This document shows positions 7,929 through 16,122 of a stretch of 64,000 nt of DNA, piece after piece. Position 1 is the first letter of the stretch. Each line of letters starts with the position of its first letter. The DNA is from Cyanobium sp. M30B3. Lineage in GTDB: Bacteria; Cyanobacteriota; Cyanobacteriia; PCC-6307; Cyanobiaceae. Location of the stretch: contig CP073761.1 of NCBI GenBank assembly GCA_018399015.1, forward strand, positions 1,736,001-1,800,000. Direction: 5' to 3'. Position numbers and translations under genes: made by a program. The notes under the pieces were generated by a model that saw only the letters and a program-made list of their open reading frames with translations, was not told the origin of the DNA and ran no database searches.

Positions 7929-9031
7929 CAGCGGCCTCCCAGAAAGTCGAGGATGCCGGCGGCGATGGCCAGGGCCATCGTGCGGCGGAAATTGGCGTTG
8001 CCCAGCCGCGGCGCGTCGATATCACCGGTGACGAAGCCCATCTCCAGCAACGCCGCCGGCATCACGGCGCGGCGGATCACAAAGAAGCGGCCGGGTTTCA
8101 CACCCCGGTTGGGGGTGCCGGAGGACACGGCCATCATCCGGGCCTGCAGGGCTGAGGCCAGGGAGCGGGCGGGGGTGCCGGCACCATCGAAGAAGAAGGT
8201 TTCCACGCCGTTCACATCCGGTCTGGCCATGCTCAGGGCGTTGGCGTGGATGCTCACGAAGGCGGTGGCCCGGGCTCTGTTGGCCATCGCCACCCGTGGC
8301 GGCAGGTCCACGTCCACCTCGCTGGTGCGCGTCATCAGCACCTGCACCCCACGGGCCTGCAGCAGCCGGGCCACCTGCAGGCTCACATCCAGCACCACAT
8401 CGGTTTCCCGCAGACCGCCGATGCCCACGGCGCCGGGGTCAGGCCCGCCGTGGCCCGGATCGATCACCACCAGAAACCGTCCCCGCGGCACCACCGGCAG
8501 ACCATCGGCCGAAAGGGGCGCTGAGGCGGTGGGGAAGGGGGCCCGGGCCGTCCAGGTGCCACTGCTGCTGGTGCCCTCCAGCTCGCCCTCCCCCAGGGCG
8601 AGGGCCGGGGCGCGATCCAGGCCCTTGATCTCCATGCGCCAGCGGTCCCGGGCCGTGCCCACCAGGCGCAGGTCGGCGGGATTGAGCCGGGTGCCGGGCA
8701 CGAACTCCATCACCAGGCGGGTGGTGCCGGCGTCGGGCCGGCCGATGCGCACCTCCTGGATCGAGCCGCTGCCGCGAATGGTGCGGCTGCGCCGGGGCGC
8801 GCCGGGCAAATCGATCCACACCCGTGGTCCCCGGCCGCCGGAGCCCGCCTCGTAGAACGCCTGCAGGGAAACGTTCGGGGTGGTGCGCAACTCGAGCTGC
8901 CCCTGGCGGTTGATCCGCCAGGCGGCCAGGCTGGAGGCCAGGGCCGGCAGGTCGGCCAGCAGCAGGGCCAAGAGCAGCAGCGCCCGGGACCCGCGGACTC
9001 CCCAGCTGCGAACACGCCGGAAGCCTGCCAT
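7928..9031 (-). CDS. N-acetylmuramoyl-L-alanine amidase with AMIN domain (AmiC-like)
   Basis: The 367-residue exported enzyme cleaves the amide between MurNAc and the stem peptide. It has an N-terminal signal segment (SRALLLLALLLADLPALASS), an AMIN peptidoglycan-targeting domain at about 35-140, and a zinc Amidase_3 domain from about 180. The metal and catalytic positions are seen in VIDPGHGGPDPGA (His), GLRETDVVL (Glu), FVSIHANAL (His) and LLEMGFVTG (Glu). Cyanobacterial AmiC proteins act in cell separation. It sits between a nitrilase-like gene and murI with overlapping ends on both sides. Confidence 0.94.
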   Translation of the reverse strand: MAGFRRVRSWGVRGSRALLLLALLLADLPALASSLAAWRINRQGQLELRTTPNVSLQAFYEAGSGGRGPRVWIDLPGAPRRSRTIRGSGSIQEVRIGRPDAGTTRLVMEFVPGTRLNPADLRLVGTARDRWRMEIKGLDRAPALALGEGELEGTSSSGTWTARAPFPTASAPLSADGLPVVPRGRFLVVIDPGHGGPDPGAVGIGGLRETDVVLDVSLQVARLLQARGVQVLMTRTSEVDVDLPPRVAMANRARATAFVSIHANALSMARPDVNGVETFFFDGAGTPARSLASALQARMMAVSSGTPNRGVKPGRFFVIRRAVMPAALLEMGFVTGDIDAPRLGNANFRRTMALAIAAGILDFLGGR

Positions 9032-12821: not shown

Positions 12822-13289
12822 TCAGTCGCAACCCTGCACCGAAACCCGGTAGCTGAAACCGGTGGAGGCAGGCATCGTGGTGGCGCCGACGCGCACGTTC
12901 ACCTGGTTGGTGCGCTTGCCTGGCACGGCCGGGAAAGGTCCGAAGCTCACCTCCTGGCCCGGTTCCAGGCTGCGGTTTTCATTCACCACCCGCAGATCGG
13001 TGTTGTCGGTGAAGCGCAGGAAAGCGGCGATCGGAAACACGCCCCGCTCGCTGGATGCAGACTGGAGAAAAATCCGGTAGCTGGCGAAGGTCCGGTCCAC
13101 GGCGAAGTCGGTGTTCCAGTTGTTGCGGCGCACCAGCCCATCCGGACTGATCCGCTTGGTCACCACCGGCTCACCGCCGCCGCCGATGGGCATCAGAAAG
13201 CGACAGGACGCCAACCCTGCTCCGGCATCAACCACCAGGGCAGCGCCGGCCGCAGCCAGCAGCGGGCTGAAAAGGCGTGAATGAACCAT
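12822..13289 (-). CDS. small secreted protein of unknown function
   Basis: A 155-residue protein with a short hydrophobic N-terminal export segment (FSPLLAAAGAALVVDAGAGLA), then a Cys soon after it (SCRFLMP) and a second Cys two residues from the end (VQGCD), which could form a disulfide joining both ends of the mature domain. The middle is beta-rich (FASYRIFLQSA, IAAFLRFTDNTDLRVVNEN, VNVRVGATT). I do not recognise a family. The adjacency of its stop to the Rrf2 stop (3 bp, convergent) argues for a real gene boundary. It may be transcribed with the upstream ATPase gene, 38 bp away. Confidence 0.75.
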   Translation of the reverse strand: MVHSRLFSPLLAAAGAALVVDAGAGLASCRFLMPIGGGGEPVVTKRISPDGLVRRNNWNTDFAVDRTFASYRIFLQSASSERGVFPIAAFLRFTDNTDLRVVNENRSLEPGQEVSFGPFPAVPGKRTNQVNVRVGATTMPASTGFSYRVSVQGCD

Positions 13290-13327: not shown

Positions 13328-14011
13328 CTATGGCTGCGACTCGGCTTCGAACAGAACTGACAGGAAGCGTTCCGGAGCGTTGAGAAAGCTGCGGGTGAGC
13401 TGCACATGCTCGCAGTCCCTATAGGCGATCGGGCGGATGCCCTCGCCACTGAAGCTGTAGAGGGTGGCGCCTGGAAAGGCCAACAGGATCGGCGAATGGG
13501 TGGCGATGATGAACTGGCCGCAGCCGGGGGTGCTGAGGTCGTGGATCACCCGCAGGAAGGCGAGCTGGCGCTGGGGCGAGAGGGCCGCCTCCGGTTCATC
13601 GAGAAGGAAGAGTCCCCGGGAGAAGCGGTTGGTGAACAGCGCCAGAAACGACTCCCCGTGGGACTGGGCGTGGAGCGAGCGGCCCCCGTACGACTCCAGC
13701 GTGGAGACGCCATCGAGATAGGTGGCGACATTGAAAAAGCTCTCAGCCCGCAGATAGAAGCCCTCGCTCACCCTGGGCAGCCAGGCCAGCCGCAGGGCGC
13801 TGGCCAGGGCCGAGGGCTCGGCGTCGGCCGGGCGCTGGTGATCGCGGCTGCCGCCCTCGGGATTGAAGCCACAGCATTCGGCGATCGCCTGCAGCAGGGT
13901 GGACTTGCCGCTGCCGTTCTCGCCCACCAGAAAGGTGACCGGCGAGGGGAACGGCAGATCAATGCCCGCCTGGAGGGCCGGCACCGTGAAGGGGTACCGG
14001 GCAGCAGCCAT
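13328..14011 (-). CDS. AAA/SMC-like ATPase (ABC-type, single protein)
   Basis: The 227-residue protein is a compact ABC/SMC-type ATPase. Walker A is VTFLVGENGSGKSTLL (about residues 25-40), a Q-loop-like segment follows, the ABC signature region is degenerate around QSHGESFLALF, Walker B is LFLLDEPEAALSP and the H-loop is FIIATHSPILL. There are no membrane segments. This family (AAA_21-like, often annotated as a predicted ATPase) includes stand-alone proteins of unknown role as well as defence-system ATPases. No nuclease or toxin partner lies beside it here, so a defence role is not supported. Confidence 0.85.
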   Translation of the reverse strand: MAAARYPFTVPALQAGIDLPFPSPVTFLVGENGSGKSTLLQAIAECCGFNPEGGSRDHQRPADAEPSALASALRLAWLPRVSEGFYLRAESFFNVATYLDGVSTLESYGGRSLHAQSHGESFLALFTNRFSRGLFLLDEPEAALSPQRQLAFLRVIHDLSTPGCGQFIIATHSPILLAFPGATLYSFSGEGIRPIAYRDCEHVQLTRSFLNAPERFLSVLFEAESQP

Positions 14012-14082: not shown

Positions 14083-14928
14083 TCAGGAGCGGGCCAGACC
14101 ATAGAAGCCTGTGGCGTACAGCACGGCCAGCAGCAAGTTGCGCAGCGATTCCCGGGTGAGCAGGAAGCGGGCCTGGCCTGCCTTGCGGTTGGTCTCCTGC
14201 TTCACCTGGGTACGGCGGTCCTGCAAGCGCTCGAAGGGATCGTCGGACTGGCCGGCAGGTGCAGGGGGCAGCCCGAGCCGCTGAAACGCCTGATCGAGAC
14301 GCTCGGGAGGCAACTGCTTGAGCTGTTGCTGCAGCACGCCGAAGCGCTGATCAATCACCTGGCTCTCACCCACCTGCCGGGCATCGATCTGGCCGAGCGA
14401 GCCGGCGAACAGCACCAGCTGCCACACCGCCAGCAGCACCATGCCATAGAAGCCGAGCATGGCCATGAAGCGAAGGTCGCCATCCTTGGCCAGCGGTGGG
14501 CGGTCGGGCTTGTCGTTGTCCTCTTCGGAACCGCCCCGATCAGCTCGAACCAGCGATGCTGCAGGCCTGGCGTCACCCGCCGCCAGCCGGGCCTGAAGTT
14601 GCTCGCGCTGCTGCAGCGTCACGCCGAGGAAACCGAGGGCCAGGGCCAGCCAGGGCAACACGCACACATTGAGAATGGCGCTGGAGAACTGGTGTCCCCA
14701 CACCTGCGAGCGCAGATTGAGGGGCAGGGCGGCGGTGATCACAAACAGAACGAACGCGATCATCAACACCCGGTAGGTGAGCCGAAGCACCTTCGTCTGG
14801 GTGGTGGTGATGCTCCCGAAGGTCACCAACATGGAGGGGTGCAGGGGCATGGAGAGAACAGGGGCAGGAAAGAAGGATGAGAAAAGAGCGGAGTCCGATC
14901 CCATTGATGGGTGGATGCTGGTGGGCAC
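14083..14928 (-). CDS. HpsJ-like membrane protein
   Basis: A membrane protein of up to 281 residues. Hydrophobic segments are seen at VLMIAFVLFVITAALPL, the ILNVCVLPWLALALGFLGV region, MLGFYGMVLLAVWQLVLFA and a last one near LLLAVLYATGF. Between the third and fourth lies a polar, Gln/Arg-rich stretch (VLQQQLKQLPPERLDQAFQR). This order of segments, the DLRF block and the coiled polar region resemble the HpsJ family, which is linked in cyanobacteria to cyanoexosortase and hormogonium-polysaccharide systems. The start is unclear: GTG 14928, ATG 14904 and ATG 14850 are all possible. The next gene upstream encodes a PEP-CTERM-like protein, which supports the assignment. Confidence 0.65.
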   Translation of the reverse strand: MPTSIHPSMGSDSALFSSFFPAPVLSMPLHPSMLVTFGSITTTQTKVLRLTYRVLMIAFVLFVITAALPLNLRSQVWGHQFSSAILNVCVLPWLALALGFLGVTLQQREQLQARLAAGDARPAASLVRADRGGSEEDNDKPDRPPLAKDGDLRFMAMLGFYGMVLLAVWQLVLFAGSLGQIDARQVGESQVIDQRFGVLQQQLKQLPPERLDQAFQRLGLPPAPAGQSDDPFERLQDRRTQVKQETNRKAGQARFLLTRESLRNLLLAVLYATGFYGLARS

Positions 14929-15254
14929 ACCTCAGGCAAGGCTTCCAGGCCGGTGGAACATCAGAAATCGAGTATCGAAAACACTCGGCAGCCAGCCAAT
15001 CGTAGGGATGTGTCAAGCAAGCGAGCAGCTCCGACAGCGACGAAACCGCGAGAAATCAATTGCGCAAATCGTCACTTCCAGGCCCGAACGCCTATGGCTC
15101 AGCCTCTTGCTGGCATGCGCTTGAACAGCGGCCTGCTGATGCCGACCGAGGAACCGGGATGTCAAGCATGCCCGCCCAGCCGGCAGGTTAGCGGGCTCCC
15201 AAGGGGGCCTGGAGTCGCTGACACCCGGGGATCGAACAAGATGAACAGGCATCC
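14929..15254. other. non-coding spacer between HpsJ-like and PEP-CTERM-like genes
   Basis: About 400 bp lie between the two minus-strand genes. The part next to the PEP-CTERM-like gene is its terminator and 3' region. The rest is visibly less GC-rich than its surroundings and contains short open frames without convincing codon patterns. TTGACA-like hexamers appear on the minus strand near 15015 and 15160, but I could not pair either with a good -10 box at normal spacing. No RNA gene could be recognised. Confidence 0.4.
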
Positions 15255-15287
15255 AAAAAAGCCCAACGGCAGGGGTTGCCGCTGGGC
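15255..15287 (-). terminator. intrinsic terminator of the PEP-CTERM-like gene
   Basis: On the minus strand GCCCAGCGGCA (from 15287) and TGCCGTTGGGC (down to 15261) pair over eleven positions with one G-T around the loop ACCCC, and the hairpin is followed directly by six T (15260 to 15255). This is a strong rho-independent terminator placed about 50 bp after the stop codon of the gene starting at 16122. Confidence 0.9.
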
Positions 15288-15336
15288 AATTTCGAATGCG
15301 GAGAACTGTGACCTGAAAGCCTGGCCAGGGGTACGG

Positions 15337-16122
15337 TCAGAGACCAGCGCCAGCCTTCTGTTTGCGCCGCAGCCGGCGGCTCCAGGCGAAGGCCGCACCG
15401 GCGCCGGCAATCGGCAGCGGACCGGGAACCTGGGTGGTGAAGAAACCGCCAACAGTGGAACCAGGGTCTGGAATCCCGCCAGGGCCGGCCGCAAAACTGA
15501 TGATATTCGTGGCACTCGGATCGCCGGTCCCCACACTGTCGAGCTGGCCGGTGATGATGAAACTGGTGACCGAAGTCAAGCTGATCTCGTCAGGTGATGC
15601 TTTCCAACTACCGAAACCGCCAACGCCGGTGTTATTGAAGGCAAAGCTGATTTCCCGGAATGCGTTGAAAGGTGCAACTGGACCGTTGCTGGCCGCGTAG
15701 GAGAAGTTGGTAGTGGCTGATCCGAAGGGATTGGGATCACCCAAGGGGATAGGGGCACCACCCAGATCTCCACCCCAAATGGCAATGGGAGAAGAAGTGA
15801 AGGGGAAGCTATTGGCAGTGCCAGTAACCACGGCCCTCACATTGGAGAAGGAAACCTGTGACTGGCCGGAGGTAATGACCCCGATTCCAAACTGGGTTAG
15901 ATCAAAGGGATCAGTACCAAGACCAGCAAAAAAACTGGTGACATCCAGTTCAAAGGTTCCACCAACGCCCAGGAAACCGCAGTTGGCACCCGAGCCCGCC
16001 GCGGCACTGCCGAAGGAGGAGTTGCCCGTGCACTGAACAACAGCCTGGGCTGGGGTGCTGAGAGCCAGCGCACCGATCGCGGAAGCCAGACTCCCCATCA
16101 ACAAGCCGTTAAGCCGTTTCAC
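15337..16122 (-). CDS. secreted protein with VPGPLP-type PEP-CTERM sorting signal
   Basis: The 261-residue protein has a signal peptide (LLMGSLASAIGALALSTPAQA), a Gly/Ser/Thr/Phe-rich beta-type body with two cysteines near the N-terminus, and a C-terminal tripartite tail: QVPGPLPIAGAGAAFAWSRR followed by a basic cluster. VPGPLP plus a short hydrophobic helix plus Arg/Lys cluster is the form that PEP-CTERM signals take in cyanobacteria, recognised by exosortase. It should be exported, anchored and then processed at the surface. The body has no recognised domain. Start is GTG 16122. It has its own terminator and a leader inverted repeat, so it is likely a single-gene transcript. Codon use looks more AT-tolerant than in neighbouring genes. 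Confidence 0.85.
   Translation of the reverse strand: MKRLNGLLMGSLASAIGALALSTPAQAVVQCTGNSSFGSAAAGSGANCGFLGVGGTFELDVTSFFAGLGTDPFDLTQFGIGVITSGQSQVSFSNVRAVVTGTANSFPFTSSPIAIWGGDLGGAPIPLGDPNPFGSATTNFSYAASNGPVAPFNAFREISFAFNNTGVGGFGSWKASPDEISLTSVTSFIITGQLDSVGTGDPSATNIISFAAGPGGIPDPGSTVGGFFTTQVPGPLPIAGAGAAFAWSRRLRRKQKAGAGL

Follow-up and report, generated by a model that had tools for sequence, protein, structure and literature searches.

The question raised by the locus described here is why a gene for a membrane protein of the HpsJ kind should stand beside the gene for a single exosortase cargo, away from the exosortase gene. The locus lies in the window, i.e., the whole analysed stretch of 64,000 nucleotides (C1:1736001-1800000) of the one-contig genome of Cyanobium sp. 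M30B3 (3,180,296 bases). An earlier reading made from the sequence alone (the sequence-only reading) had noted in this stretch a VPGPLP cargo beside an HpsJ-like gene, and this observation is confirmed, with both open reading frames. What is new is that HpsJ-like genes adjoin individual cargos, away from the exosortase, and do so repeatedly in related genomes. The pattern suggests that many exosortase cargos may have a membrane helper of their own. The features of the pair are as follows (window positions).

14083..14928, minus strand: HpsJ-like membrane protein with four helices and a charged Gln/Arg-rich helical segment between transmembrane helices (TM) 3 and 4
15337..16122, minus strand: cargo gene for a secreted protein, 261 residues from GTG at 16122 or 253 residues from ATG at 16098
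15361..15441, minus strand: exosortase sorting tail (VPGPLP, hydrophobic stretch and SRRLRRK), a match of the tail profile
16042..16098, minus strand: probable N-terminal signal peptide MGSLASAIGALALSTPAQA, predicted by eye, beginning at ATG 16098

The better start of the cargo gene is likely the ATG at 16098, and that of the HpsJ-like gene likely the ATG at 14850 or 14832. Judging by eye from the translation, the cargo signal peptide is probably cut after AQA.

Sorting Tails and HpsJ-Like Genes in the Genome

The cargo has the layout of a PEP-CTERM-type substrate, i.e., a C-terminal motif, a hydrophobic stretch and a basic cluster; the minus-strand product of 15337-16122 ends in QVPGPLPIAGAGAAFAWSRRLRRKQKAGAGL. 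A tail profile of three rows, one of which is the window tail, detected 12 tails in the genome at E ≤3.5e-9, with the next match at E 0.208. Because these 12 stand out, the window tail is far beyond chance; in tail profile A4, of which it is itself a row, it is matched at C1:1751361-1751441 (E 7.1e-17). The exosortase-type tail proposed for the cargo is thus supported, and the genome-wide hunt for other VPGPLP-type tails suggested with it brought their number to 12 in all. In an NCBIfam scan the cargo had no match to the sorting-domain hidden Markov models TIGR02595 or TIGR04155, and a degenerate DNA pattern for the tail motif was uninformative, giving 1444 forward and 1499 reverse matches, below its own control.

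The cargo body has no recognised domain, as the sequence-only reading had held: NCBIfam was silent up to E 1 or E 10, Pfam gave nothing above any cut-off, and the single-sequence structure model was poor (mean predicted local distance difference test (pLDDT) score, 31). Pfam scans of 10 of the 11 other cargos of the genome found a P-domain in L024 and a trypsin domain in L056 and were silent at E 0.1 for the other eight; two of the same 10 had weak, sub-cut-off matches to TIGR04155 (cyano_PEP).

A profile of six HpsJ-like sequences from the genome returned those six at E ≤1e-93, by construction since they built it, and one remote copy at 1e-7. Three of the seven genes closely follow a cargo gene in the same orientation, on its downstream side (the window gene, C1:546026 and C1:3149943), and one adjoins the exosortase gene, which the window gene does not.

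Several further candidates fell outside this group. The only match above the HpsJ_fam cut-off in the genome, C1:112203-112829 (91.7 bits; L022, about 7984-8841), lies outside the paralogue profile group (E 0.11) and near neither a tail found nor the exosortase; it and L027 (C1:2110765) were excluded from the HpsJ-like counts. A weak further HpsJ_fam match occurs at C1:1366318 (E 0.16), and another at C1:805794 was set aside, as its sequence resembles an ATP synthase b-type subunit by eye.

Pairing Across Related Genomes

An HpsJ-like gene was counted as paired when a tail lay no more than 2.5 kb away, and expected counts assume uniform placement. Eight Cyanobiaceae genomes, five of one genus (g6), were picked from 400 because they gave matches and consist of few contigs. 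As 150 tail candidates were scored in each of these genomes, out of 248 to 337, their tail counts are lower bounds. After the split HpsJ-like row of G222 was merged (58 rows to 57), they contained 57 HpsJ-like genes and at least 105 tails. Forty-five of the 57 genes are within 2.5 kb of a scored tail, compared with about 1.5 expected, and 43 of the at least 105 scored tails have an HpsJ-like gene nearby. The paired genes are distributed as 12/12 in G216, 9/9 in G225, 11/12 in G195, 5/6 in G115, 5/7 in G088 and 3/7 in G000. Thirty of the 45 are in tandem with the cargo first, nine divergent, five convergent and one in reversed tandem.

The excess persists when gene clustering is preserved. In circular shifts of three single-contig genomes, the observed counts of 3, 5 and 5 compare with means of 0.15, 0.10 and 0.09. 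Among shifts more than 6 kb from zero, 73 reached the observed count in G000 (63,606 tried in all), and none did so in G115 (66,848) or G088 (73,447).

HpsJ-like genes and tails also occur together over a wider sample. In searches of 400 family genomes, in which no more than 7 and 20 candidates per genome were scored and places are those of the matches listed, HpsJ-like genes were found in 66 and tails in 61; 58 genomes had both, eight an HpsJ-like gene alone, three a tail alone and 331 neither.

Proximity to an exosortase gene was also seen. Among 40 genomes (own and 39 relatives), 11 had HpsJ-like matches, and in G003, G010, G011, G012, G028 and G032 a match lies within 1 kb of an exosortase. 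G017 has three HpsJ-like genes on contigs other than that of its exosortase, and all three have a VPGPLP or VPGPVP tail close by. An exosortase scan of named genomes gave 41 loci. Cyanobacterial titles (Cyanobium, Synechococcus, Aphanothece and others) account for 39 of them and a Thiodictyon metagenome-assembled genome for the other two; an HpsJ-like gene was present in the flanks of six of the 41 (up to 4 kb read, some flanks ending at contig ends); exosortase linkage is therefore exceptional in named genomes. Reports of cargo-paired HpsJ-like genes were absent from the open literature searched, a scope that leaves out most subscription papers.

Some loci in these searches have features of their own. 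G216 and G195 are rich in both components, with roughly a dozen HpsJ-like genes and at least 14 tails each, and at L159 (G195:C12) three VPGPLP tails lie within about 2.4 kb upstream of a single HpsJ-like gene. The G222 match at L177 (5933-6446, minus strand) spans two frames and is probably a frameshifted copy. At L135 (7758-8108, minus strand), a short open frame with a VPGPVP tail deviates at its end from the usual tail and is possibly a frameshifted cargo. On the two Thiodictyon contigs (L217, L218), a related exosortase occurs together with an HpsJ-like gene and with VPGPLP or VPAPLP tails; L218 has them in the order tail, HpsJ-like gene, exosortase, in succession on one strand. These two loci would reflect a binning error or transfer.

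A Single Exosortase Encoded Elsewhere

The sequence-only reading had stated that the window has no exosortase, and this holds in a PF09721 search of the genome: the sole match above cut-off is a gene at C1:2172796-2173548 (90 bits; cut-off, 25.7), 0.42 Mb from the window, and a second match is below cut-off (E 0.03). The best subfamily model for the enzyme is cyanoexosortase A (TIGR03763; 93.3 bits), under that model's 150-bit cut-off, which was reached in none of ten genomes searched; nine of these gave a single match and G225 two. Cys154, Arg200 and His223 (C154, R200, H223), which we take to be the catalytic residues, are invariant in 11 of 11 aligned exosortases. The enzyme is 41% identical to that of G222, 46% to the second G225 enzyme and 34 to 36% to the others. 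A search of solved structures with the exosortase profile gave no match at E 0.01.

The hint that the pathway might be incomplete is not supported and was set aside, because the genome has the 12 tails as well as this cyanoexosortase-A-like gene, whose product contains the three invariant residues (Cys, Arg and His). The two findings whose joint absence had been named as counting against the sequence-only reading, an exosortase in the genome and an HpsJ match for the window protein, were both obtained, the latter below cut-off.

The HpsJ-like paralogue L003 is immediately upstream of the exosortase on the same strand. A small gene straight after the exosortase (L003 9058-9702, minus strand), with no NCBIfam match, carries an LLLPRQPxLPQLP segment that is also found in the gene after the G012 exosortase (L059).

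Family and Shape of the Window Protein

The window protein matches three HpsJ models: NF050013 HpsJ_like_A (28 bits, E 1.5e-6; cut-off, 140), NF038305 HpsJ_fam (26.4 bits, E 5.8e-6; cut-off, 60) and NF050014 HpsJ_like_B (22.2 bits, E 9.2e-5; cut-off, 260). The matches are colinear, the N-terminal part aligning with the N-terminal part of the profile and the C-terminal part with the C-terminal part. Judged by its sequence, the protein is a distant relative of HpsJ. As all three scores are below the curated cut-offs, it is called HpsJ-like here rather than a family member; the proposed kinship with HpsJ is thus upheld in the matches, whereas family membership in the strict sense is not. These matches, together with the paralogue profile, exclude a chance membrane open reading frame. 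Pfam gave no match.

In a structure model of low depth (seven sequences; mean pLDDT, 77), the protein has four membrane helices, the last two of which (TM3 and TM4) are drawn out into a long hairpin. The model bears out the segment order TM1-TM2-loop-TM3-long polar helix-TM4 that had been recognised from the sequence. In hydropathy plots of 64 HpsJ-like proteins, 46 have four strong segments and 18, including the window protein, three. Mean identity is 0.31-0.48 in the TM helices and the TM1-2 loop, compared with 0.22-0.29 in the TM3-4 segment. The C-termini of the HpsJ-like proteins of the genome contain basic residues, which, by the positive-inside rule, would place the TM3-TM4 hairpin in the periplasm, on the cargo side. 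Foldseek gave no match below E 0.41 with this model. A second structural comparison returned mostly helical bundles, the best being a designed protein (Z 11.7, 116 residues, root-mean-square deviation (rmsd) 2.7), under the level of about Z 13 advised by the tool for helical models.

Two HpsJ-Like Types and Co-Inheritance with Cargos

A tree was built from 64 HpsJ-like proteins, omitting the split G222 copy (L177), L022 and L027. One clade (100/99) joins the exosortase-adjacent copies of G000, G010, G012, G222 and G225 with the six paralogues of the own genome, three of them cargo-paired, and is separate from the remaining 52, among which 47 carry the cargo-paired label. Several copies, that of the window among them, sit on long end branches. 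The exosortases split alike (the 41 and 46% versus 34-36% identities above), so the HpsJ-like type goes with the exosortase type. Cargo-paired copies are present in both main clades; pairing occurs in both HpsJ-like/exosortase types. G225 has, in addition to eight copies of the main clade, its second exosortase with an adjoining HpsJ-like gene of the other clade (L171; G225:C1:648042-649626).

On the tree, exosortase adjacency requires one change and the pairing label seven. That pairing arose at least twice was considered and not retained, as the tree accommodates repeated gain as well as an old pairing with losses.

For 47 HpsJ-like/cargo pairs from seven genomes, taken from regions fetched around known pairs, the similarities of HpsJ-like proteins and of cargo bodies are correlated (Mantel r 0.59); none of 5000 permutations reached this value, the largest giving 0.18. 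Spearman rho falls from 0.44 to 0.30 without close HpsJ-like pairs. As the 47 pairs give 22 cargo-body clusters, one membrane-protein family stands beside very different cargo bodies. Pfam names two of 10 paired cargos of relatives, a DUF1194/VWA protein and an amidase.

Local Neighbourhood of the Pair

The HpsJ-like gene lies 0.4 kb downstream of the cargo gene, with the following element between the two genes.

15261..15287, minus strand: hairpin resembling an intrinsic terminator, with an 11-pair stem followed by TTTTTT

The scanned region has five terminator-like sites, compared with 3.8 expected in shuffles; the hairpin between the two genes has a six-T run and a longer stem than the other sites. 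In the same orientation as the HpsJ-like gene, and starting some 70 bases beyond its end, is the gene for an AAA_21-type ATPase (13328-14011, minus strand; Pfam E 5e-18), possibly a read-through neighbour with no known link to it. A further gene (12822-13289, minus strand) encodes a 155-residue protein with a hydrophobic N-terminus, for which Pfam and NCBIfam were silent up to E 1.

Proposed Role and Alternatives

The simplest account of the pairing is that the partner acts on the neighbouring cargo at the membrane. We consider it somewhat probable that HpsJ-like proteins are four-helix inner-membrane partners serving individual exosortase cargos. The window would then be one unit of a dispersed exosortase system, in which Sec would export the cargo and the C-terminal VPGPLP helix would keep it tethered in the inner membrane until a single cyanoexosortase-A-like enzyme, encoded elsewhere, cuts the tail off. 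The membrane core of the HpsJ-like protein would touch a shared part of the system, the tail or the enzyme, and the more variable helical segment linking TM3 to TM4 would extend into the periplasm and engage its own cargo body, or a polymer joined to it, before release. The biochemical role of the protein would be that of an adaptor, chaperone or secretion partner. The tethering step has a parallel in Nostoc, where, as described for cyanoexosortase B, the C-terminal domain holds the cargo until the enzyme acts and cargo passage across the outer membrane after cleavage is described as unclear (PMC12188702).

Several observations weigh against this proposal. In the eight genomes, 62 of the at least 105 scored tails are without an HpsJ-like gene within 2.5 kb, as are nine of the 12 tails of the own genome, and not every locus therefore requires a partner; own-genome tails with and without a partner are indistinguishable by eye. 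G222 and G102 have no paired gene (0/2 each, one in G222 lying 3.0 kb from a tail) despite at least 8 and at least 16 tails, respectively. Three own-genome copies, L021, L025 and the remote L026, adjoin neither cargo nor exosortase and have no tail in the stretches read. One of the 45 paired genes, G225:C1:648901, adjoins an exosortase too; nine of 17 exosortase-bearing relatives gave no HpsJ-like match, and a weak HpsJ-like match occurs in G030 and G034, in which no exosortase was found at E 1e-5. Because of the terminator-like hairpin and the 0.4 kb gap, the window pair may not share a transcript. The short TM2-3 loop (identity 0.25-0.28) is as variable as the TM3-4 segment, so variability alone is no mark of a cargo-binding site, and the membrane orientation derives from charge counts. 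The Mantel sample includes orthologous pairs, and some clustered HpsJ-like genes in it were assigned to the same cargo; the similarity correlation is therefore one of co-inheritance, not of co-adaptation.

The main rival to the partner account is a general role in the polysaccharide matrix, in which HpsJ-like proteins would assist exopolysaccharide assembly or export and the cargos would be neighbours through a shared matrix layer, without cargo-specific contact. In line with this, Nostoc hpsJ (Npun_F0077) is counted with the hormogonium polysaccharide genes in one paper (PMC10581220), and another ties a Nostoc exosortase to extracellular polysaccharide (exopolysaccharide; PMC12188702); glycan genes may also lie near the pairs. 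However, the pairs occur at many unlinked sites, 45 HpsJ-like genes being near 43 tails in eight genomes, and HpsJ-like and cargo similarities are correlated; this role seems rather unlikely, though it deserves serious consideration. Adjacency might instead come from shared mobility, the two genes duplicating and moving as cassettes within a recombining block without joint function. Tandem-pair clusters in G216, G195, G225, G249 and G115 fit such movement, as does the joining of 22 cargo-body clusters in 47 pairs to one HpsJ-like family, whereas the mixture of tandem, divergent and convergent layouts is unlike a single cassette copied whole, and HpsJ-like presence tracks tail presence over the 400 genomes; we regard mobility as improbable.

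A further alternative accepts contact with the cargo and reverses its sense: the HpsJ-like protein would hold back, or help to degrade, unprocessed cargo, as a check rather than a helper. The adjacency data fit this quality-control role equally, and the long helical hairpin of this membrane protein would suit it. Yet nothing favours it above the helper role, and NCBIfam scans of 19 HpsJ-like proteins found only HpsJ models at E 0.001, the window protein being without a Pfam match, which leaves quality control very improbable. For the partner account, the gene beside individual cargos is a directly testable component of the exosortase pathway.

Comparison with Known Systems

The closest described family is NF050013 HpsJ_like_A ("HpsJ-like protein, cyanoexosortase A-associated"), which outscores the other models for the window protein as well as for 16 of the 18 relatives scanned. 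In keeping with that family, the own genome has a paralogue (L003) directly upstream of the exosortase, the position beside cyanoexosortase A that the model name suggests for its members, whereas the window gene lies elsewhere. Unlike that family, all 19 proteins scanned score below 140 bits, the best reaching 85.8 (L070), and most copies in the eight genomes are near cargos, not near an exosortase. The 60-bit cut-off of NF038305 was passed by two of the 18 relatives, L154 (60.7 bits) and L179 (67.4 bits). Similarity to Nostoc HpsJ (NF050014, parent NF038305) is detectable at 22.2 and 26.4 bits, far below 260 and 60. Nostoc hpsJ is Npun_F0077, among hormogonium polysaccharide genes (PMC10581220), and lies away from crtB; the latter is presumed to be Npun_F0456, as its neighbours are F0455 and F0457 (PMC12188702).

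The system resembles cyanoexosortase/PEP-CTERM sorting (CrtA TIGR03763, CrtB; EpsH) in its enzyme, an exosortase whose Cys, Arg and His are invariant, and in its cargos, which have a probable N-terminal signal, read by eye, together with a C-terminal motif, hydrophobic helix and basic cluster. It differs from known PEP-CTERM sorting in its VPGPLP tail and in the score of its enzyme, 93.3 bits compared with the 150-bit CrtA cut-off.

Tetraspanins, which act as dedicated membrane partners, span the membrane with four helices, and the larger of their extramembrane portions joins TM3 to TM4. The likeness of the HpsJ-like model to them is one of architecture only (a chain of the CD19-CD81 complex, Z 6.7, rmsd 4.2, 137 residues; CD81, Z 6.0, rmsd 9.2, 111 residues); such Z scores are usual for a helical bundle, sequence similarity was neither sought nor seen, and kinship is not claimed. 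By analogy with tetraspanin pairs, we tentatively envisage, as a possibility short of probable, one enzyme working with paralogous four-helix partners in two HpsJ-like clades, each of which would be a dedicated adaptor for its neighbouring cargo.

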